Shown here: positions 4,446 to 18,950 of the stretch, in pieces
How positions within the stretch are numbered: the stretch's first letter is position 1
Layout of the letters: each line of letters opens with the position of its first letter
From: Stenotrophomonas sp. 364
Lineage (GTDB): Bacteria > Pseudomonadota > Gammaproteobacteria > Xanthomonadales > Xanthomonadaceae
Assembly (NCBI RefSeq): GCF_009832905.1
Contig: NZ_CP047135.1
Span: 1,838,001 to 1,902,000 of the forward strand
Direction: 5' to 3'
Length of the DNA stretch: 64,000 nucleotides
Position numbers and translations under genes: made by a program
The notes under the pieces: generated by a model
Database searches by the model: none
Told to the model about the DNA's origin: nothing
The model's input: only the letters and a program-made list of their open reading frames with translations

Positions 4446-4490
4446 GGAAGTTCCTTCAGGCGTGGGTGGAGCGTTGGACGTCGGTGTCGA

Positions 4491-4519
4491 TGCCGGCGCC
4501 GGTCACGCCGGCGCCGGCA
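4491..4519 (-). terminator. Strong intergenic hairpin between flagellin genes
   Basis: Arms of 12 bases (TGCCGGCGCCGG / CCGGCGCCGGCA) enclose TCACG. Each arm contains its own palindrome, so alternative folds are possible. There is no T run on either strand. Confidence 0.5.
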
Positions 4520-4532
4520 CTGCAGGCGGGGA

Positions 4533-5729
4533 TCAGCGCAGCAGGCTGAGCACGTTCTGCGGCACCTGGTTGGCCTGGGCCAGCATGGCCGTACCGGCCT
4601 GCTGCAGGATCTGGGTGCGGGTCAGCTCTGCGGTTTCCTTGGCGAAGTCGGTATCGCGGATGCGGCTACGCGAGGCCGACAGGTTCTCCGTGGAGGTCTG
4701 CAGGTTGGCCACGACCGAGGTGAAGCGGTTCTGCACGGCGCCGAGGTCGGCACGGGTGCTGTTGATCGAGCCCAGCGCCTTGTCGACGATTTCCAGCGCC
4801 TGCTGTGCACCCTTGACGGTGCTGACATCCAGGTCGCTGGCGAACTTGTTGGCCGGTGCGGCGGCGGCGGCCGTGGCGGTGAAGGTCGGTGCGGCGGCGC
4901 CGCCGGTCCAGGTGCCCGGAGTGGCCGTGATCGCCTTGAAGGTGCCGTCGGTGTTGACGCTGTCCTTGACCGAGGTCAGAGTGACAGCATCGCCTGCGGC
5001 GTTGACCTCGGCGAAGACGCCGGTTTCACCGATCTTGGCGTTGATCGCGCTGACCACCGCTTCGCGGGAGGCCTTGCCGGTAGCGGCCAGGTCGGCACCC
5101 TGCTTGACCTCGACATCGGCGATGTCCACGCCGTTGATCTTCATGCCGGTGATCTTGAAATCGGCATTGGCGGCCGGGTTGGCCAGGGCCAGCGAGTTGC
5201 TGTCGAACTTGGCACCGCCCAGGGCGTTGGCCTTGGCGTCCACCACCTTGTCGATGGCGATCGCCTGGCCGGCGTTGGCACCGACCTGGAACAGCTGGCT
5301 GGAGAACGAGCCGTCCAGCAGCTTGGTGCCGTTGAAGTCGGACTGCTTGGCGACGCGGTCGATTTCGCTGACCAGCTGGGTCACTTCGGCCTGCAGGGCC
5401 TTGCGGTCGCTGGCCGAGTTGGTGGCGTTGGAGGCCTGCACGGCCAGTTCACGGACGCGCTGCAGGTTGTTGCCGATTTCGGTCAGCGAGCCTTCGGCGA
5501 CCTGGGCCAGCGAGATGCCGTCGTTGGCATTGCGGATGGCCACGTCGGTGCCGCGGATCTGGGTGCCGAAGCGCTCGGAGATCGCCAGGCCAGCCGCGTC
5601 GTCCTTGGCGCTGTTGATGCGCGAACCGGACGACAGACGCTGGATGGTGGTGGCCAGGGAGCTGCCGCTGGTGCTCAGGTTACGCTGAGCATTCAACGAC
5701 ATCGTGTTGGTATTGATGACTTGTGCCAT
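4533..5729 (-). CDS. fliC: Flagellin (second copy in transcription order)
   Basis: This 398-residue flagellin is the longest of the four. The conserved core (residues 1-170 and the C-terminal 90) matches the copies at 2033 and 3288. The extra length is in the exposed region, which includes an alanine-rich run ending in AAAAAPANKFASDLDVST. It starts 72 bases after the stop of the promoter-proximal copy. No sigma-28 motif was found in that gap. Export needs FliS, which is encoded beyond fliD at the left edge of the window. Confidence 0.96.
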   Translation of the reverse strand: MAQVINTNTMSLNAQRNLSTSGSSLATTIQRLSSGSRINSAKDDAAGLAISERFGTQIRGTDVAIRNANDGISLAQVAEGSLTEIGNNLQRVRELAVQASNATNSASDRKALQAEVTQLVSEIDRVAKQSDFNGTKLLDGSFSSQLFQVGANAGQAIAIDKVVDAKANALGGAKFDSNSLALANPAANADFKITGMKINGVDIADVEVKQGADLAATGKASREAVVSAINAKIGETGVFAEVNAAGDAVTLTSVKDSVNTDGTFKAITATPGTWTGGAAAPTFTATAAAAAPANKFASDLDVSTVKGAQQALEIVDKALGSINSTRADLGAVQNRFTSVVANLQTSTENLSASRSRIRDTDFAKETAELTRTQILQQAGTAMLAQANQVPQNVLSLLR

Positions 5730-5801
5730 GGGAAGAGGTCCTTGAGCGGTTGCACGTGATTTGGGTTAGACGCTCATGACGTGCTTCAGGAGCGGCTCAT
5801 G

Positions 5802-6968
5802 TCAGCGCTGCAACAGGCTGAGCACGTTCTGCGGCACCTGGTTGGCCTGGGCCAGCATGGCCGTACCGGCCTGCTGCAGGATCTGGGTGCGGGTCAGCTC
5901 TGCGGTTTCCTTGGCGAAGTCGGTATCGCGGATGCGGCTGCGCGAGGCGGACAGGTTTTCCGAGGAGGTCTGCAGGTTTGCGACAACGGAAGTGAAGCGG
6001 TTCTGGATCGCGCCGAGGTCGGCGCGGACGCTGTTTACCGATTCCAGTGCCTTGTCGACAATTTCCAGCGCCTTCTGTGCACCGATGTAGGACGAGACAT
6101 CCAGGTCCTGCACGAAGCTGGAGGTGGCGGTGGCGGCAACCGAGCTGGGCGCGGCGGCGGTGGAATCGGCCAGGCCGAGCTGGGCGGCGCCGTCGATGAC
6201 CAGGTCGCGGTCGGCCTGGACCGAGGTGAGCTTCAGGCGGTGGGTGTCGGGGGTGCCGGCGGTGGTGACCACTTCGGCATAGACACCGGCTTCGCCGATC
6301 TTGCTGTTGATCTGGGCAGCGGCGGAGGCGGCAAACTCGGCGGTGGTCTTGCCGGTGATGGTGCCGATGGCGGCGCCGTTGATGGTGACGCCGGTCAGGT
6401 CGGTGATGGTGGCGACGTCGGCGGTGCTGTCCACGGGGGCGGCGAACTTGGCGTTGCCCAGCGAGCTGGCCTTGGCGTCGACCACGTTGTTGATGGCGAT
6501 GGCCTGGCCGGCGTTGGCGCCGACCTGGAACAGCTGGCTGGTGAAGCTGCCGTCGAGCAGTTTGGTGCCGTTGAAGTCGGACTGCTTGGCCACGCGGTCG
6601 ATTTCGCTGACCAGCTGGGTGACTTCGGCCTGGAGGGCCTTGCGGTCGCTGGCGGAGTTGGTGGCGTTGGAGGCCTGGACGGCCAGTTCGCGGACGCGCT
6701 GCAGGTTGTTGCCGATTTCGCTCAGGGAGCCTTCGGCGACCTGGGCCAGCGAGATGCCGTCGTTGGCATTGCGGATGGCGACGTCGGTGCCGCGGATCTG
6801 GGTGCCGAAGCGCTCGCTGATGGCCAGGCCGGCGGCGTCGTCTTTCGCGCTGTTGATGCGCAGACCAGACGAGAGGCGCTGGATGGTGGTAGCGAGCGAG
6901 CTGCCGCTGGTGCTCAGGTTGCGCTGAGCGTTGAGCGACATCGTATTGGTGTTGATTACCTGTGCCAT
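5802..6968 (-). CDS. fliC: Flagellin (promoter-proximal copy, most divergent)
   Basis: This 388-residue copy lies directly behind the sigma-28 promoter at 7062-7088. It keeps the common flagellin ends but is the outlier: SSGLRINSAKDD instead of SSGSRINSAKDD near residue 36, SLSEIG instead of SLTEIG, SFTSQLF instead of SFSSQLF, and a C-terminus LSLLQR with one extra residue. The exposed middle (about 172-300) is unique. In multi-flagellin filaments the proximal gene often encodes a distinct segment or the main subunit; which applies here is inference. Confidence 0.96.
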   Translation of the reverse strand: MAQVINTNTMSLNAQRNLSTSGSSLATTIQRLSSGLRINSAKDDAAGLAISERFGTQIRGTDVAIRNANDGISLAQVAEGSLSEIGNNLQRVRELAVQASNATNSASDRKALQAEVTQLVSEIDRVAKQSDFNGTKLLDGSFTSQLFQVGANAGQAIAINNVVDAKASSLGNAKFAAPVDSTADVATITDLTGVTINGAAIGTITGKTTAEFAASAAAQINSKIGEAGVYAEVVTTAGTPDTHRLKLTSVQADRDLVIDGAAQLGLADSTAAAPSSVAATATSSFVQDLDVSSYIGAQKALEIVDKALESVNSVRADLGAIQNRFTSVVANLQTSSENLSASRSRIRDTDFAKETAELTRTQILQQAGTAMLAQANQVPQNVLSLLQR

Positions 6969-7088: not shown

Positions 7089-7225
7089 GGCGGAAATTTC
7101 GCTGGGGTTGCCGGTGCTGCCGTCCGGGGCCTTGGCTGTGCACCCCGATAGAAGGGTTAACGGCGCGGGAGGCGGAAATTGAAGGGGTTTTCACGCGTAT
7201 CGCCGGGCGCGGCCGGGCTCGCGCC

Positions 7226-7288
7226 GTAGAGCCGGGCTCTGCCCGGCTTGCATCCACAGCTCGACGTAGAGCCGGGCTCTGCCCGGCT
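7226..7288 (+). repeat. Two direct SMAG/GTAG REP units
   Basis: Two 23-base units beginning GTAGAGCCGGGCTC and ending GCCCGGCT lie at 7226-7248 and 7266-7288, a 40-base period that includes the shared flank TGCATCCACAGC. This is the SMAG family of S. maltophilia. The surrounding 6969-7680 gap (712 bases) has no gene. Confidence 0.85.
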
Positions 7289-7337
7289 TGCATCCACAGC
7301 CACAGCCAAAGCCAAGCGCCGCATCGGCCACGTCCAG

Positions 7338-7536
7338 GGAGGCCCGGCCCGGGTGGGCCGGCGGGACACGCCGTAAACCTCGCTCCGCGGTCCGGCCCAG
7401 CCGCTGGCGGCTGTGCGTTCAGTCGCATGCGAGGCAGTGCCTCGCGAGCAATGCGTCTTCACCCCTGGGGGCTCGTGGGCGCCATCCATGGCGCCCAACG
7501 GTCCCGCCAACCCACTCGGGCCGGGCCGGGCCTTCC
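7338..7536 (+). repeat. Dispersed palindromic element, copy A (interrupted core)
   Basis: Imperfectly complementary arms at about 7338-7367 and 7501-7536 flank a core that begins ACACGCCGTAAAC and ends with GGGCGCCATCCATGGCGCCC AACG. The core is shared with copies at 18444 and 18840, but the arm sequence is specific to this copy. About 80 bases are inserted inside the core here (near 7380-7460), with their own small hairpins. Confidence 0.7.
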
Positions 7537-7614
7537 TGAGTAGGTCGGCGCGCAAGCAAGGGGCGGTAGAGCAGGGCATCGGCTGCGGCGCGGGCGCATT
7601 CGAAGACGCACAAC

Positions 7615-7648
7615 AAAAAAAGGCCGCGATGCTGTTCGCATCGCGGCC
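7615..7648 (-). terminator. Rho-independent terminator after flgL
   Basis: On the minus strand GGCCGCGATGC and GCATCGCGGCC form a perfect 11-bp stem with a 5-base loop followed by seven T. It closes the flgG-flgL transcript 33 bases after the flgL stop. Confidence 0.93.
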
Positions 7649-7680
7649 TTCAGGCCTTCATGGCATTTCGTAACGCGCTG

Positions 7681-8883
7681 TCAGCGCAGCGTGTTGAACA
7701 ACGACATCTGCTGCATCTGCGAGAACAGGGTCTGTGCAGCCTGCAGTGCAGTGCTTTCCAGCTGGTACTGGCTGATGGCGTCGGCGTAGTCCAGGTCGCG
7801 CATCTGCGAGAGCGTGCCCTTGAGGGTGACGGTGTTGGATTCGCGCATGTCCGCGACATTGTCCAGCGCCTTGAGCTGGGCCCCGCCTGCGGCGCGGGAG
7901 TCGATCATGCGTTCGGAGGCGCGGGCGACGTCGCGCAGGCCACTTTGCAGCAGGTTCTGCTGGGCGGCGGACTGGCTGGCGCTGCCGGTGTCCATTTTCA
8001 GCGAGCCGATCAGGCTGTCCAGGGTGCTGAAGATGTCGCGGCTGGTGGCGGGGCTCACGTTGAAGGTGTCGCCGGCGGCCGGCTTGCCGTCCACGTGCAG
8101 GCGCACGCCATTGAGGACCAGGTCGTCGCCGGCCTTCATGGTGCCGGTGGACACCACGGTGCCGGTGTCGTCGAGCAGTTCGTACTGGTCGGCGGCGGTG
8201 AAGCGCACGCTGAAGGCCTTTCCGTCCCAGCTGTTGCTGCCGTCGCGGGTGACGTTGGTCAGCACGCCGGTGCCGGTGTTGCCGGTGGCGGCCGCACCAT
8301 CCACGTGGCCATCGCCGGTGCCGATGCGCAGGAAGATCTCGCTGCCGGGCAGGGCGTCGAGCACGTAGGTGTCCGGGCCCACTTCCACCTGGCGCTGGTT
8401 CTGGTCGCCGTTGTAGACCACCTTGCCGTCGACCTGGCTGAAGGGCGGGCTGCCGTCGGCGGTGCCGCCGAACAGGTAGCGACCGGTGCCGTCGGTGCTG
8501 TTGGCCAGCGCCAGCAGGTTGCTGCGGATCGCCTCGATTTCGGTGACCATCGACTGCTTGTCGGCCGCAGCCAGCGCCGGATTATTGGCGTAGATGGTCA
8601 GTTCGGTGATGCGGCCCATCATGTCACCGACCTGGGCCAGTGCGTTTTCCTGCAGGCCCAGCCGGTTCTGCACGTTGCCGGCGTTGAGCTGCATGCGGTC
8701 CAGCGAGGCCAGCGTGCGGTCCAGGCCCACGGCGGCGCCGGAGGCGACCGGGTCGTCCTTGGCGGTCACCAGGCGGCGACCGGTGGCGATCTGCTGTTCC
8801 AGGTGGCTCATCTTGGCCTGCTTGGCCATCATCAACGAGACCGACTGGCTGAACATCATGCCGGTGGAAATACGGTTGTTCAT
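7681..8883 (-). CDS. flgL: Flagellar hook-filament junction protein FlgL (HAP3)
   Basis: The 400-residue protein joins hook and filament together with FlgK. The N-terminus (RISTGMMFSQSVSLMMAKQA) and the C-terminus (LQAAQTLFSQMQQMSLFNTL) are the flagellin-like D0 helices of the FlgL family; the middle is variable. Its ATG overlaps the flgK TGA (ATGA at 8880-8883), so the two are translationally coupled. A strong terminator follows. It is the last gene of the flgG-flgL transcript. Confidence 0.95.
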   Translation of the reverse strand: MNNRISTGMMFSQSVSLMMAKQAKMSHLEQQIATGRRLVTAKDDPVASGAAVGLDRTLASLDRMQLNAGNVQNRLGLQENALAQVGDMMGRITELTIYANNPALAAADKQSMVTEIEAIRSNLLALANSTDGTGRYLFGGTADGSPPFSQVDGKVVYNGDQNQRQVEVGPDTYVLDALPGSEIFLRIGTGDGHVDGAAATGNTGTGVLTNVTRDGSNSWDGKAFSVRFTAADQYELLDDTGTVVSTGTMKAGDDLVLNGVRLHVDGKPAAGDTFNVSPATSRDIFSTLDSLIGSLKMDTGSASQSAAQQNLLQSGLRDVARASERMIDSRAAGGAQLKALDNVADMRESNTVTLKGTLSQMRDLDYADAISQYQLESTALQAAQTLFSQMQQMSLFNTLR

Positions 8884-10760
8884 CGGCCTACGGCTCCGAG
8901 GATGGTCTGGAACATGGTGTCGGCGGTGGAGATCAGCTGCGAGGCGGCCTGGTAGGCCTGTTGCAGCCGCAGCATGTCGGCGGCCTCCTCATCCAGGTTG
9001 ACCCCCGATATGGAATCGCGCGCGGACTGCGCCTGGTCGGTGATGACCTGCTGGGCCTGCAGGGAGTAGTCGGCCGAGCGTGCGGCGGCGCCCACCTGCG
9101 TGGTCAGCCCGCCGAGGGCGCCGCTCAGGGTAACGGTGCCATCGTTGAATGCCTTGGCCTGTTCCACCTTCGCCAGCAGCAACGCGTTGCTGTTGTCCGA
9201 CGAGCCGGCCGGGGTCGGCCCGATGGTGAAGGTGTCACCGGTCTTGGGCGCGCCGTCGAGCACGAAGCTCCAGCCGTTGGCGCTGATGGTCTGGCCGGCG
9301 GTGTAGGTGAACGGGCCGGCGCCATCCAGCGTGTACTGGGTGCCGCTGGTGAACACGATCGCGGCCGGGTTGCGCAGGCCGGCATTGCCGTGGTCGGTCA
9401 CCTTGACCCCGGTCAGCTTGCCCGTGCCGCTGTTGGACAGGGCGGCGGTGCCTTTGATCGGGGCGGCAGCGGCAATGCGCGAGGTGTCGGTGATGGCCAC
9501 CGACATCGTGCCGGCCACGCCGGCGGTGGGCTGCAGCAGCATGCGGTCGTTCAGCGCCGGGGTGCCGGTCATCACCAGCTCCACGCCATTGAGCACCAGC
9601 GGGTCGGTGGCGGTGCCGGTGCCGGTCATGGCGATCGCCACGCCAGTGTCAGCGCGGCTGGCCTGCCACTGGGTGCCGTCGAACTTCAGCACCACGTTCT
9701 GCCCGTCCAGCTTGGACAGGTCGCCGAAGCTGGCGGTCATGCTGGCGGTACCAGCATTGCCGGCATGGCCGGTGATGCGCGGCGCGCCGATGTTGAAGAA
9801 GTCGCCGCCCAGGTTGCCGTACAGGTCCGCGCCCTGGCGGTGCACGTCGTTGAAGCTGCTGGCCATGCCGATCGCCAGCTTGCCCAGTTCGGCCTGGGTG
9901 GGGGTCAGCACGGTGTCGCGGAACTCCAGCAGCCCGCCGATCTGGCCGCCGAGCGTCTTCGATTCCAGGGTGAGCTTCTGGCCGGCACTTTCCAGCGCCA
10001 GCTGCAGGCGCTCGGGCATGTACGGGTCCGATACGGTGGTGACCTTGGACGCGGTGGTGCCCACCACCAGCGCCTGGCCGCCGGCCGTGTAGACGTTCAT
10101 GATGCCGCCGTCCTGCATCACCGCGTTGCCGCCGGTGTAGCCGACCAGGTTGGCGATCAGTTGGTCGCGACGGTCCAGCAGGTCCGGCGCGGCATTGGCC
10201 GCGTTGCCGCCGATGGCGCCATTGAGCTGCGCGATTTCCTTGGCCAGCCGGTTGATCTCGCTGGCGCCGGCGATCAGGCCGTTGTTGACCTCGCCGTTGA
10301 GTGTGTTGAGCTGTCCGTTGAGCTGCTGGAAGCGGTTGGCCAGGGTCTTGCCCCCGTCCAGCATGTTCTGGCGGTCGGCGGTGCCGGAGGCGTTGGAGGA
10401 CAGGCCGCTGACGGTGTCGAAGAAGCTGGACCAGACCCCGGATACGTTGGTGGCGGTATCGGAGAACATCGCATCGACGCGGTCGGCCATGCTGGACAGC
10501 TGCTTCAGCCGCGCCAGTTCGCCGCTGCCATCGAGCAGCCGCGAGATCGCCAGCTGGTCGGCTACGCGGCGGATGTCGCTGATGCGCGTGCCATTGCCCA
10601 CGTCGCCATACCCGAAGTTCTGCGGGTTGGCGGTGGCGAAGTCGACCTTCTGCCGGCTGTAGCCGGGCGTGTTGATGTTGGCGACGTTATGGCTGGTGGT
10701 CGCCAACGCCCGCTGGAAGGCGAGCAGGGCGCTGGTGCCGGTGGAAAGTACGCTGGACAT
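8880..10760 (-). CDS. flgK: Flagellar hook-associated protein FlgK (HAP1)
   Basis: The 626-residue protein is the hook-side adaptor of the hook-filament junction. The N-terminus carries the rod/hook signature ALATTSHNVANINTPGYSRQ (residues about 18-37), and the C-terminus (SGVNLDEEAADMLRLQQAYQ) is the usual helical end. Length is typical for xanthomonads. It is preceded by flgJ with an 8-base gap and overlaps flgL by four bases. FlgN, encoded at 21111, is its expected export chaperone. Confidence 0.96.
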   Translation of the reverse strand: MSSVLSTGTSALLAFQRALATTSHNVANINTPGYSRQKVDFATANPQNFGYGDVGNGTRISDIRRVADQLAISRLLDGSGELARLKQLSSMADRVDAMFSDTATNVSGVWSSFFDTVSGLSSNASGTADRQNMLDGGKTLANRFQQLNGQLNTLNGEVNNGLIAGASEINRLAKEIAQLNGAIGGNAANAAPDLLDRRDQLIANLVGYTGGNAVMQDGGIMNVYTAGGQALVVGTTASKVTTVSDPYMPERLQLALESAGQKLTLESKTLGGQIGGLLEFRDTVLTPTQAELGKLAIGMASSFNDVHRQGADLYGNLGGDFFNIGAPRITGHAGNAGTASMTASFGDLSKLDGQNVVLKFDGTQWQASRADTGVAIAMTGTGTATDPLVLNGVELVMTGTPALNDRMLLQPTAGVAGTMSVAITDTSRIAAAAPIKGTAALSNSGTGKLTGVKVTDHGNAGLRNPAAIVFTSGTQYTLDGAGPFTYTAGQTISANGWSFVLDGAPKTGDTFTIGPTPAGSSDNSNALLLAKVEQAKAFNDGTVTLSGALGGLTTQVGAAARSADYSLQAQQVITDQAQSARDSISGVNLDEEAADMLRLQQAYQAASQLISTADTMFQTILGAVGR

Positions 10761-10768
10761 GGGTTACC

Positions 10769-11992
10769 TCAACGACGGATGACACCCAGCCCGGTCGGGC
10801 TGGCGGTGCTGGCAAAGGTGCGGCCCAGCTGCTGGCTGGCATCGCCCACGGCGGCGATGGCGCGCTCGATGGTCGGGCCGCCGGCAATCGCGGCGATCTT
10901 GGCCGCGTAACTGGGATCGGTGGCGTAGCCGGCCTTCTGAAGGCCCTGGGCAAAGCCGCGGACGTCGCCGCCAGCCTGCAGCGCGTTCTGGTAACGCGGG
11001 CTGTTCTTGAGCAGTTTCACGTAGTCGGCAAAGCTGTCGCCGACCGAGGTGTAGGCGCGGAAGCTGGCGGTTTCGTTGCGGCGCACGCCGTCCACATATT
11101 CATGCGTGCCGCTGCTGGCGCGCTCGCCGCTCCAGCCGGTGGCCTTGATCCCGAACAGGTTGTGCGAGCTGCCGCCGCCGTTGCGCTGCACCAGCTTGCG
11201 GCCCCAGCCGGTTTCCAGCGCGGCCTGGGCGACCAGCGCCTTGGCGTCCACGCCCAGTTCGCGCGCGGCCTGCTGGGCATGGCCCCAGATGCTGGCCACG
11301 AAGCCTTCCGGGGTGTGCGGGCCGAGCTTGGCGGCGGCGGTGTTGGCCGCCAGCGTGTCGACCGCGCCGGGGCCACGCGCGGTGTCGGTGACGCCGCTCC
11401 AGCGGTCGTTGGCCAGCGCCGCCCAGTTTTCCTGGGTGGGCTCGCTCACGCCCGGCGGCGTGGCATACGGATCGCTCCGACCGATCGCCTCGTGCATCTG
11501 GCTGCTTTCGCGGCCGGCGATCAGGTCCAGGGCGCGCTCCATTGGCTGCAGCACCGCCGACGGATCGGCGCCACGCAGCTGCTGCAGCAGGTCCACTTCG
11601 CTTGGCGCGCTGGCCGGGGCGGTGCCGGCGGGCAGCGCCATCGGCGTGGCGGCGGGCGCGTTGAGCCGGTAGGCACGCAGCGCGGCCGCCGGGTTCAGCG
11701 CGGTGTCGGTCGGTTTGGCCGCGTCGGCCTCGGCGCCGCCCAGCTGGCGGGTGATCATCGCCGACAGTCCCAGGCCGCGGCCCCGGGTCATTGCCTCGGC
11801 GATCTTCTTGTCGTACATCTCGCGGAACATGGTGTTTTCGGCGGGGAACAGCGAATCGCCGAAGCTGGCATCGCGCATGCTCTTGACCAGCATCTGCGCG
11901 AACTGGCCTTCCAGCTGGCGCGCCACCTTGTCGACCTTGGCCGGGCTGTTGGCCTGGGTCGGATTGAGTTCCAGTGCGGGAGTGATGCGCAT
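10769..11992 (-). CDS. flgJ: Flagellar rod-assembly muramidase FlgJ
   Basis: The 407-residue protein has two domains. The N-terminal part (about 15-110, with QLEGQFAQMLVKSMRDASFG) is the rod-capping domain. The C-terminal part (about 235-385) is a beta-N-acetylglucosaminidase domain with AALETGWGRKLVQRNGG and HNLFGIKATGW, which opens the peptidoglycan for the rod. A Pro/Ala-rich linker joins them, making it longer than the 313-residue enterobacterial protein. It lies one base from flgI and eight bases from flgK. Confidence 0.95.
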   Translation of the reverse strand: MRITPALELNPTQANSPAKVDKVARQLEGQFAQMLVKSMRDASFGDSLFPAENTMFREMYDKKIAEAMTRGRGLGLSAMITRQLGGAEADAAKPTDTALNPAAALRAYRLNAPAATPMALPAGTAPASAPSEVDLLQQLRGADPSAVLQPMERALDLIAGRESSQMHEAIGRSDPYATPPGVSEPTQENWAALANDRWSGVTDTARGPGAVDTLAANTAAAKLGPHTPEGFVASIWGHAQQAARELGVDAKALVAQAALETGWGRKLVQRNGGGSSHNLFGIKATGWSGERASSGTHEYVDGVRRNETASFRAYTSVGDSFADYVKLLKNSPRYQNALQAGGDVRGFAQGLQKAGYATDPSYAAKIAAIAGGPTIERAIAAVGDASQQLGRTFASTASPTGLGVIRR

Positions 11993-11993
11993 G

Positions 11994-13178
11994 TCAGATC
12001 ACCTCGAGTTCGGCGCTCAGCGCGCCGGCCTGCTTGAGGGCTTCCAGGATGGCGATCAGGTCGCCGGGGGCCGCGCCCACCGCGTTGACCGCGTGCACGA
12101 TCTCATCCAGCGTGGTCCCGCCAGTGAACTTGAACATGCGGCTGCCATCGTTGGTGGCGGTGATGGTGGACTGCGGCGTGGCCACGGTCTGGCCATTGCC
12201 GAACGCGTTGGGCTGGCTGACGTTGGTGTTTTCGTTGATGGTCACAGTCAGCGAGCCATGCGAAATGGCCGCCGCGCCCACCCGCACCTGCGCGCCGATC
12301 ACCACCGTGCCGGTACGCGCGTTGACCACCACCTTGGCCGGCGCACTGCCGGGGGTGAGTTCCAGGTTCTCGATGCGCGCCAGCAGGCCGATGCGTGCGC
12401 CCGGGTCGCTGGGCGACTGCACCGACACCGTCACGCCGTCGATCGCGCGCGCGGCGCCATCGCCGAAGGCGTTGTTGAGTGCGGCGACCATGCGCGACAC
12501 CGTGGTGAAGTCGTTCTTGTGCAGGTTCAGGGTGATGTCGCCGCCGCCGTTGAACACGTCCGGCAGCGCGCGCTCGACAGTGGCACCGTTGGGGATGCGG
12601 CCCACGCTGGGCACGTTCACCGACACCCGCGACCCGTCCTTGCCCTGCGCGCCGAAGCCGCCGACCACCAGGTTGCCTTGGGCGATCGCGTAGACCTGGC
12701 CGTCGGCACCGCGCAGCGGCGCCATCAGCAGCGAGCCGCCGCGCAGCGACACCGCGTTGCCGATCGACGACACGGTGATGTCGATCGGCTGGCCCGGCTT
12801 GGCGAACGGCGGCAGCTCGGCATGGATGGCCACGGCGGCCACGTTTTTCAGCTGCGGGTTGACGTTGGCCGGCACGTTCACGCCCAGCTCGCCCAGCAGG
12901 TTCTTCAGGCTCTGCACGGTGAAGGGTGCCTGGCTGGTGCGGTCGCCGCTGCCGTCCAGGCCGACCACCAGGCCATAGCCCACCAGCGCATTGGTGCGCA
13001 CGCCGCCCACCTGGGCCAGGTCCTTGATGCGTTCGGCAGACGCCGGGGCAACCACCGCGAACACGGCCAGCAGCGCCAGCACCGCGCGCATCGGGTAGAG
13101 CGTCGCCGCGCGTCGCTGCTGTGCCGCGTAGAGCGACGTCATACGTCGCTGCCCGAACAGGGAAAAGGAAAAGGTCAT
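11994..13178 (-). CDS. flgI: Flagellar P-ring protein FlgI
   Basis: FlgI forms the periplasmic P ring around the distal rod. The mature part ([20 protein letters not shown] onward) is highly typical. The start is uncertain. From 13178 the protein has 394 residues and an unusual 29-residue extension before the hydrophobic signal core ([19 protein letters not shown]). Two GTAG palindromes (13095-13117 and 13128-13150) lie exactly inside that extension and are read in frame. An alternative start is the ATG at 13091. No strong ribosome site precedes either. It follows flgH by seven bases. Confidence 0.9.
13095..13150 (+). repeat. Two GTAG (SMAG-type) palindromes inside the flgI 5' end
   Basis: Units at 13095-13117 (GTAGAGCGTCGCCGCGCG...) and 13128-13150 (GTAGAGCGACGTCATACG...) each end in TCGCT, with a 33-base period. 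The stem sequence is AGCGACG-type rather than the AGCCGGG or AGCCGACC types found elsewhere in the window. Confidence 0.7.
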
Positions 13179-13185
13179 GTCAGGC

Positions 13186-13878
13186 TCAGAACGGCGTCAA
13201 CGCCGAGTTGAAGAAGCGGCTCAGCCAGCCCATTGCATTGGACTGGGCAACCGGGCCGCGGCCGCCGTAGACGATGCGGGCATCGGCAACGCGGCTGGAC
13301 GGAATGGTGTTGTCGGGGAAGATGTCCGCGGCGCGCACGATGCCCTGCACCTGCACCAGCTCGTTGCCCTGGTTCAGGCGCAGGTTCTTGGCACCCTGGA
13401 CCACCAGGTTGCCGTTGGGCAGGCGCTGCACCACCGTGACGGTCACGCTGCCCTGCAGGCGGTTGCTCTGCGCGCTGGTGCCCTTGCCGGTGAAGTCGCG
13501 CGAACCGGCCGCGCTGGCGGCCAGGATGTCCTTGCCGCCCAGGGTCACCGGTGCGCCGAACAGGGTCGGGGTGCCGATGCTCAACTCCGATTCCTTGGCC
13601 GTGGTGGTGTTGGCGGTGGTCTGCGCGGTGGTGCTTTCGGTCAGGGTGATGGTCAGCAGGTCGCCGACATCACGCGCGCGGCGGTCCGAGTACAGCTGCA
13701 GGCCGGGGCCGGCGGCGTAGATCGCACCGGCGGTGGCCTGCGCGGTCGGCGCCACGATCGGGGTGATCGGCGCCATCGCGGGATAGGGCCGGACATCGCC
13801 GGCGATGACGCAGCCGCCGAGCAGGGCGACCACGGAGCTGGCAAGCAGCAGGCGAAGGGTAGGGCGCAGGGGCGACAT
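13186..13878 (-). CDS. flgH: Flagellar L-ring lipoprotein FlgH
   Basis: The 230-residue outer-membrane lipoprotein forms the L ring. The N-terminus is a lipoprotein signal with lipobox LLGGC, putting the acylated cysteine at residue 23. The body has the family segments [20 protein letters not shown] and [18 protein letters not shown], and the C-terminus [18 protein letters not shown] is conserved. It sits between flgG (23 bases) and flgI (7 bases). Confidence 0.95.
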
Positions 13879-13901
13879 GGCAGTGCTTCCGGTTCGGCCG
13901 A

Positions 13902-14687
13902 TCAGACGTTCTGGTTGAGGTAACCGAGCATCGCGTCGGTGGTGGAGATCGCCTTGGCGTTCATTTCGTAGGCGCGCTGGGTTTCGATCATCGACACCAG
14001 CTCTTCGACCACGTTGACGTTGCTGCCTTCCAGCGCACCCTGCACCACGCCGCCCAGGCCGTTCAGGCCGGGGTTGCCGTTCTGTGCGGGGCCCGAGGCG
14101 GTGGTTTCCAGGAACAGGTTTTCACCGCGTGCCTGCAGGCCGGCCGGGTTGACGAAGTCGGTCAGGGTCAGCGCGCCGATCTCCACCGAGGCTGCGTCGT
14201 CGGCCATCTTCACGCTGATGGTGCCGTCGGTGCCGATGGTGAGCGACTGCGCGCCTTCGGGAATCTGGATGCCCGGCTGCACCGGGTAGCCGCTGTTGGT
14301 GACCAGTTCGCCCTGCTGGTTGCGCTGGAACGAGCCGTCACGGGTATAGGCCGAGGAACCGTCGGGCATCTGCACTTCGAAGAAGCCGCGGCCGTTGACC
14401 ATCACGTCCAGCGCGCGACCGGTCTGCTGCTGGCTGCCCTGCTCGAAGTTCTTCGAGGTGGCTACCACGCGCACGCCGGTGCCCAGCTGCAGGCCGGTGG
14501 GCAGCTGGGTCTGCGCCGAGGATGCGCCTCCGGGCTGACGCACCTGCTGGTACAGCAGGTCTTCGAAACTGGCACGGTCCTGCTTGAAGCCGGTGGTGTT
14601 GGTGTTGGCGAGGTTGTTGGAAACCACCGACATGCGCGTCTGCTGCGCATCCAGTCCGGTCTTGGCGATCCACAATGCCTGGTTCAT
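13902..14687 (-). CDS. flgG: Flagellar distal rod protein FlgG
   Basis: The 261-residue protein builds the distal rod. It has the rod signature [19 protein letters not shown] (about residues 21-39) and the conserved C-terminal helix [20 protein letters not shown]. Length is typical (about 260). It is the first gene of a second rod/ring transcript: a sigma-54 promoter lies in the 106-base gap between flgF and flgG. flgH follows. Confidence 0.97.
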
Positions 14688-14746
14688 GGCGATGTTCCTT
14701 TGTCTGTTGCGGGTGGCCGCATGGGGCGGCCGTTACAGGAAGCGAA

Positions 14747-14762
14747 TGCATGGCGCGTGCCA
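14747..14762 (-). promoter_or_regulatory. Internal sigma-54 (RpoN) promoter before flgG
   Basis: Minus-strand TGGCACGCGCCATGCA has GG-N10-GC and a perfect TGGCAC -24 box. Transcription would start near 14736, 50 bases before flgG. This gives flgGHIJKL a promoter separate from flgBCDEF. Confidence 0.65.
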
Positions 14763-14793
14763 GAACCGCGCCGGAAAGCCGTCACCGGGGCGA

Positions 14794-15546
14794 TCAGCCG
14801 CCCAGGCGCAGCAGGCTGTTGGCGCTGCGGGCGTTGTCGTCGCCGTGCTTGATCACCTTCACCTGCATTTCGTACTGGCGCTGCAGCTGGATCATCTGCA
14901 CCAGTGCGCCGGCGGCATCGACGTTGCTGCCTTCCAGCTGGCCGCTTTCCAGGGATTTGCCCTGGGCCTGCACGAACGGCTGCTGCGGATCGGTGTTGCG
15001 CATCAGGCCGTCCAGGCCGCGTTCCAGGCGTTCGTCGGCGGCGGCGACCACGCGGATCCGGCCGATGTTGGCCATGGTCTGCGGGCCTTCGCCGAGCGGA
15101 ATGATCGAGATCGTGCCGTCGTTGCCGATGTCCATCGCCTGGTGTGGCGGGATGGCGATCGGCGCGCCGTTCTCGTCCAGCACCGGATGGCCGCCGGCGG
15201 TCACCAGCTGGCCATTGGGCGTGATCGAGAGCGCGGCACCCCGGGTGTAGGCTTCACCGCCCCCGGCCGGCGCCTGCACCGCCAGCCAGTTGCCCGACTG
15301 CAGCGACAGGTCCAGCGGGTTGCCGGTGATCTGCTGCGCGCCCATGCGCCGGTTGAAGCCGGCGTCGACGTGCAGGGCGTCCACGCGCGAGGCATAGCCG
15401 GTGCCCTTGATCGGGAAGGCCTCGGTATTGGCGAGGGCTTCCTTGAAGCCAGGGGTATCGGTGTTGGCCAGGTTGTGCGAGAGCGTGCCCTGTGCCTGCA
15501 GCGACGCACGCGCACCGGTCATCGCTACGTAGAGCGCCTTGTCCAT
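14794..15546 (-). CDS. flgF: Flagellar proximal rod protein FlgF
   Basis: The 250-residue rod protein starts MDKALYVAMTGARASLQAQG and has the rod signature LSHNLANTDTPGFKEAL (about 23-39). The C-terminus GALVQMIQLQRQYEMQVKVI is the common rod/hook helix. It is last in the flgBCDEF transcript, 32 bases after flgE, and is separated from flgG by 106 bases containing a sigma-54 promoter. Confidence 0.96.
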   Translation of the reverse strand: MDKALYVAMTGARASLQAQGTLSHNLANTDTPGFKEALANTEAFPIKGTGYASRVDALHVDAGFNRRMGAQQITGNPLDLSLQSGNWLAVQAPAGGGEAYTRGAALSITPNGQLVTAGGHPVLDENGAPIAIPPHQAMDIGNDGTISIIPLGEGPQTMANIGRIRVVAAADERLERGLDGLMRNTDPQQPFVQAQGKSLESGQLEGSNVDAAGALVQMIQLQRQYEMQVKVIKHGDDNARSANSLLRLGG

Positions 15547-15578
15547 CGTCTTGTTCCCGTGATGCGATCAGTGGCTCA

Positions 15579-16802
15579 TCAACGGATGTTGATGATGGTC
15601 TGGGTGATCTGGTCCATGGTCGAAACCATCTGCGAATTGGCCTGGAAGTTGCGCTGGGCCGTGATCATGTTGACCAGCTGCTCGGTCAGGTCGACCGTGG
15701 AGGCTTCCAGCGAACCGGCCTGGACCTTGCCCAGGTTGGAGCTGTCCGGCGCGCCGGTGCGCGGGGTGCCCGAGCTGAAGGTTTCCACCCACAGGTTGTT
15801 GCCCTTGGCTTCCAGGCCCTGGGTGTTGTTGAAGGTGGTCAGTGCCACCTGGCCTAGCGCCTTGTCATCGCCGTTGGAATAACGCGCGTAGACCACGCCG
15901 TCTTCGGACACGGTGATCTCGTTGAGCTTGCCGGCCGCGTAGCCATCCTGCTGAGTGTTGCGCAGCGCGAACTTCTCGCCGTACTGGGTGGACCCGGAGA
16001 TGTCCAGGGTCAGCGCCAGCTGGCCGGCACCGGTGCTCGGAGTAAAGGGGGTCAGGGTGATCTGGCCGTTGGCCGGGGACGTCAAGGCGCCGGCGTTGTT
16101 GAAGGTCAGCGTGGTGGCGGCACCGGCAGCCTGGCCGTCGACGTAGTTGTAGACCTGCCATTCGTTGGGATTGGCGGTCTTGACGAAGTACGAGGTCTGG
16201 GTGTGGCTGACGCCCAGCGAGTCGTACACGGTGATGCCGCCGGTGGACTGGCTGTAGCTGTTGGAGTCGGTCGGGCTGAACGGGTTGACCGTGGGTACCT
16301 TGGCGTCGGCCGGCAGGGTGAAGCTGACGTTGACCTTGCTGGTCTGCTTGGGCGGGCTGTCGGTGGTGAGCAGCTGCAGGTCGACCAGGCGGCCGGCATC
16401 GAAGTTGGTGCCATCGGCGTTCGGCGCGAACACCTGCAGGCGCGCACCCTGCGGGTTGGTCACGTACCCGGCCTGGTCGGTCTGGAAGTTGCCGGCGCGC
16501 GAGTACACGCGGGCGCCGTTCATGGACATGGTGAAGAAGCCCTCACCGGAAATGGCCATGTCCAGGCTGCGCCCGGTCTGTTCGTTGTTGCCCTGCGAGA
16601 ACTGCTGGGCCACGTTGGTCAGGCGCACGCCCTGGCCGATGGCATTCTTGGACAGGCCGTAGCTGGTGGCCGAGAACAGGTCGGCGAACTCGGCGCGCGA
16701 CTGCTTGAAGCCGGTGGTGTTGACGTTGGCGATGTTGTTCGCGGTGACGTTCAGATCGGCATTGGCAGCGTTGATGCCGGACAACGAGACATTGAAGCCC
16801 AT
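15579..16802 (-). CDS. flgE: Flagellar hook protein FlgE
   Basis: The 407-residue hook subunit starts MGFNVSLSGINAANADLNVT. The chosen ATG at 16802 gives the normal N-terminus; the reading frame is open further upstream but only through flgD in another frame. The signature NNIANVNTTGFKQSRAEF follows at about 22-39, and the C-terminal helix MITAQRNFQANSQMVSTMDQ is typical. It is preceded by flgD (32-base gap), which encodes the hook cap. Confidence 0.97.
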   Translation of the reverse strand: MGFNVSLSGINAANADLNVTANNIANVNTTGFKQSRAEFADLFSATSYGLSKNAIGQGVRLTNVAQQFSQGNNEQTGRSLDMAISGEGFFTMSMNGARVYSRAGNFQTDQAGYVTNPQGARLQVFAPNADGTNFDAGRLVDLQLLTTDSPPKQTSKVNVSFTLPADAKVPTVNPFSPTDSNSYSQSTGGITVYDSLGVSHTQTSYFVKTANPNEWQVYNYVDGQAAGAATTLTFNNAGALTSPANGQITLTPFTPSTGAGQLALTLDISGSTQYGEKFALRNTQQDGYAAGKLNEITVSEDGVVYARYSNGDDKALGQVALTTFNNTQGLEAKGNNLWVETFSSGTPRTGAPDSSNLGKVQAGSLEASTVDLTEQLVNMITAQRNFQANSQMVSTMDQITQTIINIR

Positions 16803-16834
16803 GGGATTGCTCCTGGTATGCGGGGTGGGGCGGC

Positions 16835-17518
16835 TCAGCTGATGCGGAGCACGTAGTCGATCGGGGCCGTGCCCAGGCCCTTGAGGTTGAGGTACAGCCC
16901 ATCGGAGCCGACGGTGACGCTCTCCACCGGGGCTTCGACGTAGGTGTTGGCCTTGGTCTTGGCGCCGGCGCTGTCGGTGAAGGTGGCGGCGAGGGTGTAG
17001 CTGCCGGCCGGCATGCGGTTGCCGTTGGCGTCCTTGCCGTCCCATTCGAAGGTGACTTCGCCGGCGGCCTTGGCTTCCACGCTGATCGTGTTGACCTTGA
17101 CCCCGTTGGCATCGGTGATGTCCACGTTGACGAAGCCGGCGCCGGGCGCGGCGACCATGCCGTTGGTGGCGCCTTCGGTTTCCAGCGACCACTTGGTCGA
17201 GGGAATCAGCACGTCGTGGCCCACCAGCGCCGCACCGCGCAGGATCTGGTCGCCGGACATCTGGTCCTGGAAGCCCTTCACGGTGGTGTTGAGGTCGGTG
17301 ATGCCCTGCACCTGCGACAGCTGCGCCATCTGCGCGACCATCTGGGTGTTGTCCATCGGCTTGAGCGGGTCCTGGTGCTGCAGCTGCTCGGTCATCAGGC
17401 GCAGGAAGTCGGCCTGGTCCAGGGTGCTTTTCTTCTTGCTGGTGTCGCTGTTGGGTGCGTTGAGGCCGAGCGCGGAATAGATATCGCTGCCCTGGCCGAC
17501 GCCGCTGGTGCTGCTCAT
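16835..17518 (-). CDS. flgD: Hook-cap assembly protein FlgD
   Basis: The 227-residue scaffold caps the growing hook and is absent from the finished flagellum. The N-terminal region has the conserved FLRLMTEQLQHQDPLKPMDN (about 38-57), needed for export and capping. The C-terminus holds the FlgD Ig-like and Tudor-like folds (FEWDGKDANGNRMPAGSYTL). The start at 17518 matches the family N-terminus. It lies 26 bases after flgC. Confidence 0.96.
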   Translation of the reverse strand: MSSTSGVGQGSDIYSALGLNAPNSDTSKKKSTLDQADFLRLMTEQLQHQDPLKPMDNTQMVAQMAQLSQVQGITDLNTTVKGFQDQMSGDQILRGAALVGHDVLIPSTKWSLETEGATNGMVAAPGAGFVNVDITDANGVKVNTISVEAKAAGEVTFEWDGKDANGNRMPAGSYTLAATFTDSAGAKTKANTYVEAPVESVTVGSDGLYLNLKGLGTAPIDYVLRIS

Positions 17519-17544
17519 GACGGTATGTCCTGTGGAATGAAGGG

Positions 17545-17952
17545 TCAGCGACCCATGGTCAAGGTGGCCAGCGCCAGTTCCTTGGCGGTGGTCAGCATTT
17601 CCACGCCGGCCTGGTAATTGCGCGAGGTGGAGATGAGATTGACCATCTGCGCGACCGGGTCGACGTCGGGCTGGTAGATGTAGCCATCGCCATCGGCGAG
17701 GGGGTGGCCGGGCTCGTAGCGCTTGATCGGCGCGGCGTCGCTCTGGCTGATTTCCTTGACCTGGACGGTGGTGATGTTGGGGTCGGTGCGGCTGGTGACC
17801 GACTGGAAGATGGGTTCGAGCGGCTTGTAGACGGTCTCGGCCGAGCCGGTCACGGTGTCGGCGTTGGAGAGGTTGGAGGCGATGGTGCTCATGCGCACGG
17901 ACTGGGCCTGGAGGGCAGAGCCGGCGATGTCGAAAATGGGGAGGTTGCTCAT
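17545..17952 (-). CDS. flgC: Flagellar proximal rod protein FlgC
   Basis: The 135-residue rod protein starts MSNLPIFDIAGSALQAQSVR and carries TIASNLSNADTVTG near residue 22. The C-terminus has VNLISTSRNYQAGVEMLTTA, the usual FlgC helix. Length is normal. It lies three bases after the flgB stop codon, so the pair is probably coupled. Confidence 0.97.
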   Translation of the reverse strand: MSNLPIFDIAGSALQAQSVRMSTIASNLSNADTVTGSAETVYKPLEPIFQSVTSRTDPNITTVQVKEISQSDAAPIKRYEPGHPLADGDGYIYQPDVDPVAQMVNLISTSRNYQAGVEMLTTAKELALATLTMGR

Positions 17953-17955
17953 GGC

Positions 17956-18351
17956 TTATTGGCCTGTGATGGCGGTGAGCATGGAGCGCACCTTGGATTC
18001 GACGAAGCTGAGCGAGGCGCGGTATTCGAGCGCGGCGCGGCCGTAGGCGGCCCGTTCGGCGTCGGGGTCGACGGTGTTGCCGTCGATGCTGGGCTGAACG
18101 CCTTCCTTGGCAATCTGGAAGGGGTTGAGGCCGCCGCCGATGGCGTAATGCTGTTCGTTGGTGGTTTTCATGAGGCCGTTGCTGTCCAGGCCCTGGGCAT
18201 TGCGCAGGGCGGCATCGAAGTCGAGGTCCTGCGCCTTGTACCCGGGGGTGTCGGCATTGCTCAGGTTGCTGGCGATGAGCTTCATCCGCTGCTCGCGCAA
18301 CGGCATGGCCTGGGCATGGACCCCCAGATAGTCGGAAATCAGATTGGGCAT
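17956..18351 (-). CDS. flgB: Flagellar proximal rod protein FlgB
   Basis: The 131-residue rod protein has the rod signature IASNLSNADTPGYKAQDLDF (about 27-46). It is the first gene of the flgBCDEF transcript. A near-perfect sigma-54 promoter lies 33-48 bases upstream (18384-18399), so expression should need RpoN with a flagellar activator such as FleQ, which is not in this window. Confidence 0.96.
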   Translation of the reverse strand: MPNLISDYLGVHAQAMPLREQRMKLIASNLSNADTPGYKAQDLDFDAALRNAQGLDSNGLMKTTNEQHYAIGGGLNPFQIAKEGVQPSIDGNTVDPDAERAAYGRAALEYRASLSFVESKVRSMLTAITGQ

Positions 18352-18383
18352 GGCGCGCTCCCACGGGACGATGGGGGGAGCGG

Positions 18384-18399
18384 TGCAAGGGCTGTGCCA
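18384..18399 (-). promoter_or_regulatory. Sigma-54 (RpoN) promoter of flgBCDEF
   Basis: Minus-strand TGGCACAGCCCTTGCA matches both the -24 and -12 boxes with GG-N10-GC. The start is expected near 18372, about 20 bases before flgB. Confidence 0.88.
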
Positions 18400-18443
18400 G
18401 TGGGTGGGCGGTGACGGAGGCGGCGCTAGTCATTCCCGCGCGC

Positions 18444-18552
18444 GGCGAGAGGCGGTAGACCCTGCCGGGACACGCCGTAAATCCATCCCTGGAGGCTCGT
18501 GGGCGCCATCCATGGCGCCCAACGGTCCCGGCAGGGTCTACCGCCTCTCGCC
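18444..18552 (+). repeat. Dispersed palindromic element, copy B (perfect 28-bp arms)
   Basis: Arms at 18444-18471 and 18525-18552 are perfectly complementary over 28 bases. The 53-base loop between them holds the conserved core, including the inner palindrome GGGCGCCATCCATGGCGCCC. The arms contain GGTAGACCCTGCC and share no sequence with the arms of the other copies beyond the terminal GGGAC/GTCCC. Confidence 0.85.
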
Positions 18553-18649
18553 CGGACAGGTCTGCATCGTCGGACGGAAATGCCACAGCCGGCTTCGGGA
18601 GGAGGGGTTGTGCCGGCCGCTGGCCGGCAACGCCTGCGACGCAGGCGAC

Positions 18650-18672
18650 GTAGAGCCGGGCTCTGCCCGGCT
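18650..18672 (+). repeat. SMAG/GTAG REP unit
   Basis: Single 23-base unit starting GTAGAGCCGGGC and ending CCCGGCT. Confidence 0.8.
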
Positions 18673-18691
18673 GCGGGACCCTGACGCCCAC

Positions 18692-18715
18692 AAAAAAGCC
18701 CAGCAGGGGCTGGGC
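18692..18715 (-). terminator. Rho-independent terminator downstream of cheV
   Basis: On the minus strand GCCCAGC and GCTGGGC form a 7-bp stem with loop CCCT followed by six T. It is the first such signal after the cheV stop at 18996. A transcript reaching it would carry palindrome copy C and a SMAG unit in its 3' UTR. Confidence 0.75.
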
Positions 18716-18770
18716 GTGATGATGAATCGATGCCGCGTTGTGCCGGCGAAGGGAATGCAGCGGCGCCGAG

Positions 18771-18793
18771 GTAGAGCCGAGCGTTGCTCGGCT
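18771..18793 (+). repeat. SMAG/GTAG REP unit, variant stem
   Basis: Unit starts GTAGAGCCGAGC with loop GTT and ends GCTCGGCT; the stem differs from the unit at 18650. Confidence 0.75.
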
Positions 18794-18839
18794 GCTTCAC
18801 CTCAGCCCCAATAGACAAGCGGGCGCCGACCCACCGTAA

Positions 18840-18950
18840 GCAGGCCGGGGCGGATGGGGTTGCGGGACCGTTGGGCGCCATGGATGGCGCTCACGAGCCC
18901 CCAGGGATGGGTTCACGGCGTGTCCCGCAACCCCATCCGCCCCGGCCTGC
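18840..18950 (-). repeat. Dispersed palindromic element, copy C (perfect 29-bp arms)
   Basis: Arms at 18840-18868 and 18922-18950 pair perfectly over 29 bases. The core lies in the opposite orientation to copy B and reads, on the minus strand, ACACGCCGTGAACCCATCCC and then TGGGGGCTCGTG, GCGCCATCCATGGCGCCC and AACGG. Arm sequence (GGCCGGGGCGGATGGGG type) is unique to this copy. The 18352-18995 gap holds copies B and C, two SMAG units, a terminator and the flgB promoter, but no gene. Confidence 0.85.

Follow-up and report, generated by a model that had tools for sequence, protein, structure and literature searches.

Among described systems, the REP (repetitive extragenic palindromic), BIME and REPIN sequences, which include the GTAG repeats of the SMAG family, are short intergenic hairpins present in dozens of copies, as inverted pairs or arrays, with a lineage-specific spread. 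The Csr/Rsm sponge RNAs (CsrB, CsrC, RsmX, RsmY and RsmZ) present GGA in hairpin loops as docking sites for protein, and RsmU of Xanthomonas (PMC7694677) is counted among them. TwoAYGGAY (RF01731) and Bacillaceae-1 are small RNAs with two GGA-loop hairpins each, and PMC4333381 predicts CsrA binding for both on that basis. Miniature inverted-repeat transposable elements (MITEs) are non-coding and mobile. Here we describe a dispersed repeat that resembles each of these in part, found in three copies (A, B and C) in a 64,000-nucleotide stretch of the genome of Stenotrophomonas sp. 364 (the window; NZ_CP047135.1, positions 1,838,001 to 1,902,000). On balance we lean, with some reserve, towards reading each copy as a mobile, promoterless RNA module that docks CsrA/RsmA.

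A preliminary description of the window had recognized three palindromic elements with a common core; all three are present, with their ends refined to those given below. The core 12-mer occurs three times when up to one mismatch is allowed (all three exact), against 0.45 occurrences expected by chance, and three or more were obtained in 1 of 100 shuffles. The core was originally written on the strand complementary to the informative one. On the informative strand, referred to as the GGA strand, the element comprises an approximately 28-bp rod followed by a short CG/CG step, then hairpins P3 and P2 and a return into the rod; P2, which has a five-base bulge, is closed by GCC/GGC, and P3, P2 and the rod form a three-way junction. 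The features in the window are as follows.

7341..7527, minus strand (GGA strand): copy A, with arms at 7341-7367 and 7501-7527
7483..7490, minus strand: CAUGGAUG loop of hairpin P3 in copy A, read off the sequence
18444..18552, minus strand (GGA strand): copy B, with arms at 18444-18471 and 18525-18552
18484..18491, minus strand: CAGGGAUG loop of hairpin P2 in copy B, read off the sequence
18507..18514, minus strand: CAUGGAUG loop of hairpin P3 in copy B, read off the sequence
18553..18840, no strand: spacer between copies B and C, with two GTAG (SMAG-type) repeats by eye
18841..18949, plus strand (GGA strand): copy C, with arms at 18841-18868 and 18922-18949
18879..18886, plus strand: CAUGGAUG loop of hairpin P3 in copy C, read off the sequence
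18902..18909, plus strand: CAGGGAUG loop of hairpin P2 in copy C, read off the sequence

Copies B and C form one divergent pair. The arms of copy B pair perfectly (28 of 28) around an apical domain at 18472-18524, and those of copy C pair at 29 of 29 positions once the extra pair 18840/18950 is counted. The 27-bp arms of copy A include two G·U pairs and one A·C pair, and an insert of about 80 bases lies inside the hairpin that normally bears the second CsrA-like loop. RNA folding of copies B and C gave z scores of -10.2 to -12.3 on either strand. The earlier statement that the arms are unrelated between copies was found to hold for A, B and C but not genome-wide, where many copies share arm families. 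That description did not include the CANGGANG loops of the opposite strand, nor the constant divergence of the pairs or the wide distribution of the family.

A covariance model (R1) was built from 56 copies, in which 35 of the 42 pairs exhibited changes on both sides. Among 46 copies from six distant genomes, in an alignment fitted to the model and hence biased towards structure, standard pairs filled 96.2% of cells over all pairs, compared with 57.8% after shuffling and 34-44% with partners slid by 1-3 columns, and the covariation score was 0.941 against 0.192 in shuffles. The slid controls indicate that model fitting alone does not make the pairing effect. For the arms only, 96.8% of cells were paired, all 27 pairs varied on both sides, and all four Watson-Crick types were observed at 22 of them. 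Non-complementary arms and fixed, conserved arms, either of which had been named beforehand as counting against the earlier interpretation, were not seen in these copies. The stems around the loops vary as well (GGCGCC, CCGCGGC, GTCAAAAAC and TGAAA). Long-insert variants were also observed (7341-7527 in the window, L046, L123, L230 and L255), in which about 80 bases replace the P2 or the P3 loop. Inserts at the P2 loop read GGGTGA...GCGGAGCG, those at the P3 loop add hairpins whose loops contain AGGA (by eye), and the insert stems differ from copy to copy yet pair.

Transitions in a perfectly paired stem yield G·U and A·C equally often, and the two are exchanged when the opposite strand is read. 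In the arms of 321 copies (alignments A3-A7), however, the GGA strand had 326 G·U pairs and 39 A·C pairs. The host genome gave 60:3, the remaining species of the genus 45:6, a single locus 30:5, the remaining genera of the family 127:10 and family f7 21:0. Since the copies are related, p-values would be overstated; the direction of the excess was the same in every group. This excess indicates that the GGA strand is the molecule whose folding counts. The GGA strand is kept folded, RNA being the simplest reading and one single DNA strand the other, and selection for a folded stem with a fixed loop, as offered in the preliminary description, is thereby supported. In these alignments, A3 contributed the top 75 of its 135 rows and A6 the top 34 of 45, cuts which drop echoes but also some weak sense copies (e.g., L119, L133, L114 and L125), and A5 consisted of 150 of the 168 matches from 94 hand-picked loci; identical sequences were counted once.

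The loops were counted in 275 distinct sense copies (alignments A3-A6), of which 264 have two 8-base loops. CANGGANG was found at P3 in 255 of the 264, a conservation that is partly by construction because the 56 training copies had been chosen by an exact CATGGATG in P3. At P2, which was not used in choosing them, it was found in 258. GGA in loops matching CANGGANG, a feature of the Csr/Rsm sponges, was present in both loops of 250 copies. The third base of the P2 loop is free (T in 87, G in 111, A in 41 and C in 25), and each letter of GGA was kept in 263-264 copies. In distant genomes P3 often reads CAGGGATG, and the loop form there is CTACAGGGAYGTA. We take CANGGANG with a closing C-G to be the consensus hexaloop hairpin bound by CsrA/RsmA, and CTACAGGGAYGTA and TACAGGGATGTA presumably match the CsrA ligand selected in vitro by SELEX (systematic evolution of ligands by exponential enrichment). 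CsrA (PF02599) was encoded in 14 of the 14 genomes tested.

The host genome is a single contig of 4.84 Mb. In a DNA search of it, with 40 of the 90 first-look candidates scored, 47 matches were obtained, 41 with more than 71 bits; R1 gave 113 matches at an E value of ≤1 and 85 at ≤0.001. Removal of 7 same-place echoes on the opposite strand left 106, and the addition of two long-insert copies brought the total to about 108, of which 79 stand at E ≤ 0.001 (85 matches less 6 echoes). These 108 copies occupy 69 places, 30 of them as singles and the rest in 39 pairs. Every pair runs minus-then-plus with the GGA strands diverging, including one overlapping double whose members are 27 bases apart. 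Both members reached E ≤ 0.001 in 17 of the 39 pairs (by hand); the others have a weaker, mostly long-insert, partner. For the named genomes, context was counted in 65 stretches, from 80 listed of at least 120 that matched the pattern, using 77 of 84 matches (1 echo, 1 long-insert copy and 5 matches near a locus end were excluded, and a few others near a locus end retained). All 9 opposite-strand neighbours less than 900 bases apart in these genomes diverge, and there was one same-strand pair, 846 bases apart, in L365. The inverted hairpin pairs of REPINs and BIMEs have their counterpart here, in the 39 divergent pairs and in alternating arrays in genome G207.

With the DNA query, matches were found in 31 of 61 genomes, host included. 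The covariance model, at E ≤ 0.001 with stricter filters and the host included, matched 57 of 200 genomes (22 of 69 genera) in the order and 49 of 274 genomes (44 of 221 genera) in the class, which by its named hits is Gammaproteobacteria. Genus g27 gave no match in its 5 listed genomes in the order survey. Among the matches listed, the exact tip pattern occurred in Marinobacter, Rheinheimera, Microbulbifer, Halopseudomonas, Sedimenticola, Pectobacterium, Luteimonas and others, and in one viral contig; a search with one 58-base consensus was negative for plasmids, phages and E. coli. Copy number is labile: at E ≤ 0.001, genome G234, which is 92% identical at flgB, has 16 copies versus 79 in the host. 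The pair in the window was absent from flgB-cheV elsewhere, with no element at E 0.01 in 29 other genomes of the genus (of 37 matching). The flgB-cheV interval of G234 may hold a remnant of one arm, a single site that is ambiguous between loss and gain.

Our reading of the repeat as an RNA module builds on the fold, the enforced pairing, the strand-specific tolerance of G·U, the loop consensus, the copy number and dispersal, and the divergent pairs. The GGA strand would be transcribed through read-through or pervasive transcription, and the transcript would fold into a rod of about 28 bp that isolates a three-way junction with two CANGGANG hairpins, so that one CsrA/RsmA dimer could dock on both loops of one module. 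The scattered copies may together form a distributed sink for CsrA/RsmA, and each may locally tag the RNA in which it lies for stability or processing; RNase III may cut the rod and free the tip. Complementarity could be maintained by two routes, the elimination from the folded strand of mismatches, A·C among them, which is seen as the wobble asymmetry, and the copying or exchange of both arms together, to which transversional double changes and tip swaps point. For the divergent pairs, one may speculate that a transcript entering from either side would contain one sense copy.

Several results weigh against this reading, in addition to the choice of training copies noted above. CsrA was also encoded in all five of the tested genomes without an element match (part of the 14). 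Long-insert variants such as copy A lack one canonical loop. The arm G·U:A·C ratio was only 43:15 in the most distant genomes (elsewhere in the class), and in the apical stems, with the hexaloop position excluded, it was only 22:11 (alignments A3 and A5-A7). By one of five measures, further pair types in the 46 distant copies, the count was 112 compared with 118.7 in shuffles, 488 of 500 of which were as high. Orientation to genes is mixed and the sense bias weak and inconsistent, 13 of the 30 host singles and 18 of 51 in the named genomes having no upstream gene that reads into the GGA sense; a further count by a crude nearest-ORF rule, which is unreliable where flanks are GC-rich, was given no weight. 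In 60 copies, a simple and weak consensus scan found no upstream promoter signal (p 0.49 and 0.33), and no T-run followed the rod (mean longest T-run of 1.5 in 15 bases).

The alternative that survives best, which we nevertheless consider unlikely, is that the GGA strand acts as folded single-stranded DNA whose two-loop tip is recognized by a recombinase or transposase, as Y1 enzymes recognize REP hairpins, the diverging pair being the mobile unit and the CsrA-like loops a coincidence. The high and labile copy number, the lack of a promoter signal and the fixed divergent arrangement (39 of 39 pairs in the host, 9 of 9 neighbours in the named genomes) all suit such a mechanism, as does G207 (L217 and L218), where a diverging pair with a conserved spacer is repeated in tandem. 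However, only two weak fragments of the element (E values of 0.026 and 0.33) lay within 1.5 kb of any of 10 Y1-transposase (PF01797) loci from 7 genomes, and mobilization by a REP-associated tyrosine transposase (RAYT) was rejected because the element did not flank the Y1-transposase loci examined. In genome G516, five copies are carried as cargo in a small inverted-repeat element (L277-L281) with ends AGCAATTCCCA/TGGGAATTGCT that are unrelated to the hairpin and with target duplications of 9-10 bases at four of the five. The moving ends there are other inverted repeats, which argues against the repeat being only a transposase end. Furthermore, each DNA strand of a diverging pair bears only one GGA hairpin, and the match of two loops to an RNA-protein consensus would have to be an accident. 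In Stenotrophomonas, no terminal repeat was seen outside the rods (by eye) and no target duplication. Of the possibilities raised in the preliminary description, a dispersed non-coding element whose tip is fixed and whose stem is enforced was borne out, whereas target-site capture was not supported, given that the arms of copies in genome G506 are homologous to each other and that the G516 element is cargo with 9-10 base duplications; no clean empty site was found.

A neutral repeat subject to palindrome correction, in which replication slippage and template switching maintain perfect palindromes and the tip is conserved only because the spread was recent, appears improbable to us as a full account, yet the way in which the arms change does resemble copying. 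Each copy was compared with its closest copy at an arm identity of at least 0.7, and both-sided Watson-Crick changes were scored. Transversions and transitions numbered 88:43 in the host genome, 61:29 in the genus, family and f7, and 28:20 in the class, so that transversions were 1.4-2.1 times as frequent in three of four alignments, although a 2:1 ratio is also expected from unrelated letters and part of it is block replacement rather than point change. One fixed locus, with few events, gave 2:2, or 7:3 at identity 0.5, and seven homologous arms in G506 gave 11 transversions to 9 transitions. Since stepwise compensation via G·U would produce mostly transitions, the transversion excess speaks for copying or exchange. 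Distant arms are also often perfect, with 26 of 75 fully Watson-Crick and stems of up to 46 bp.

Tips swap and fuse at the fixed locus, which was compared in the 30 best of 79 matching genomes of the genus. At least one copy at E 1e-9 was present in 22 of the 30; by eye, the other eight comprised two long-insert copies, two contig edges, three fused remnants and one with none. One outer arm bears either of two tips, each with matching inner arms, and GTATCC..GGCTA replaces GTGTCC..GGCCA, alone or within a tip swap. In the fused remnants (L232, L242, L246, L254 and L257), which were assessed by eye, one copy supplies the left part and its partner the right, and at this one locus they look like a deletion between two palindromes. 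The homologous arms of several G506 copies differ at several positions and are still matched, with the exception of L354, which pairs poorly as anchored. Exchange or copying thus probably involves the arms as a unit, rather than stepwise repair alone, and the arm-from-arm copying by template switching that had been suggested earlier is probable from the transversional double changes and whole-tip swaps. The arm mismatches that survive are probably those tolerated by RNA. Correction on its own has no reason to favor G·U over A·C on the GGA strand (326:39), and it leaves unexplained the constant loop letters beside covarying stems across the class.

With our own gene finder, none of the 108 host copies was inside a predicted gene, and 7 of 59 unpaired copies in the named genomes overlapped one. 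Relative to the neighboring genes, the host singles were arranged as >E> (10), <E< (9), >E< (7) and <E> (4). A bidirectional mRNA 3'-end structure in convergent gaps, forming a barrier to read-through and exonucleases with the loops as mere hairpin caps, could account for the excess of convergent over divergent gaps (16 >E< versus 5 <E> among named-genome singles; 17 versus 8 units in the host, against a background of 6 versus 11 among 48 gaps, all raw counts), but we hold it to be similarly improbable, since the two strands fold about equally and pure structure would predict neither strand asymmetry nor letter-by-letter loop conservation, while no T-run follows and tandem gaps are the commonest (44 of 69 host units). 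An intrinsic terminator was rejected for the absence of a U-tract after the hairpin in the 60 copies, in which a Csr/Rsm small RNA gene with its own promoter and terminator likewise gave no signal for either (weak scan).

Several further observations concern the surroundings of the copies. In several host copies (e.g., L019, L025 and L028), the 3' arm is followed by tracts of a repeated hexanucleotide, (GTTGCT)n or (GGCTCT/C)n. At L272 (genome G472), two copies lie in narrow gaps flanking one gene, presumably aroA, and one starts within 3 bases of the stop codon of that gene. GTAG (SMAG-type) repeats are found near all three copies in the window (7223-7300, 18650-18673 and 18770-18793), and the spacer between B and C contains a terminator-like hairpin on the minus strand near 18690-18716 (by eye). 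Three tandem genes with near-identical starts (3288-6968), which we take to be flagellin-like, adjoin copy A.

Compared with the described systems, the repeat differs from REP/RAYT sequences in that its stem sequence is not conserved (among the 46 distant copies, none of the 27 arm pairs is constant on either side), in having no GTAG foot tag, its 5' foot reading approximately CTGTC in many copies of the genus and other letters in distant genomes (by eye), in not lying beside the Y1 transposase genes examined, and in its strand-specific G·U tolerance and two-loop tip. The missing tag and unconserved stem agree with the earlier exclusion of the SMAG/GTAG family. Unlike the Csr/Rsm sponges, it is scattered over about 70 places instead of being confined to one or a few genes, has two sites per copy, and shows no promoter or terminator signal and no Rfam match. 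A long rod of free sequence and paired, dispersed copies distinguish it from TwoAYGGAY and Bacillaceae-1, and covariance-model searches at E values up to 10 (4 loci) or 5 (7 loci) did not list TwoAYGGAY. The G516 element lies inside a MITE-like unit with target duplications, but unlike MITEs the repeat itself has no terminal repeat visible outside the rods in Stenotrophomonas, and its rods are not conserved. An integron attC site is unlikely because the copies are dispersed divergent pairs. At the gathering threshold no Rfam family was matched, the only hit being a tRNA beside one copy; candidates at E values up to 10 or 5 (microRNA-type, Ysr224 and similar) were all below the cut-off and were rejected. 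As the repeat lacks tested features of REP/RAYT, Csr small RNA genes and TwoAYGGAY and no Rfam family matched, we regard it as an unnamed, new family, although an older catalogue of S. maltophilia repeats may contain an entry for it. A literature search at title level, which did not extend to those catalogues, found no description of the repeat, fragments of its sequence retrieved no paper, and no Csr sponge RNA of Stenotrophomonas was found by title and abstract openings.

We put forward more tentatively, as a real possibility, that this is a class-wide mobile RNA family that distributes ready-made pairs of CsrA/RsmA docking sites to as many as about 200 positions in one genome. The rod would be selected only for double-strandedness and rewritten on both sides at once by tip exchange or arm-to-arm copying, and the target set of a global regulator would be remodelled by a transposable RNA element. 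Even if CsrA is not the ligand, a structured repeat present in 44 of 221 sampled genera and unmatched in Rfam is a gap worth filling. The family also offers a natural experiment, in which the letters of a helix are free and those of their partners bound, for testing compensatory mutation against templated copying in long palindromes. If the proposal is true, the CsrA/RsmA regulon and its titration state in many Gammaproteobacteria would be set in part by a mobile repeat.

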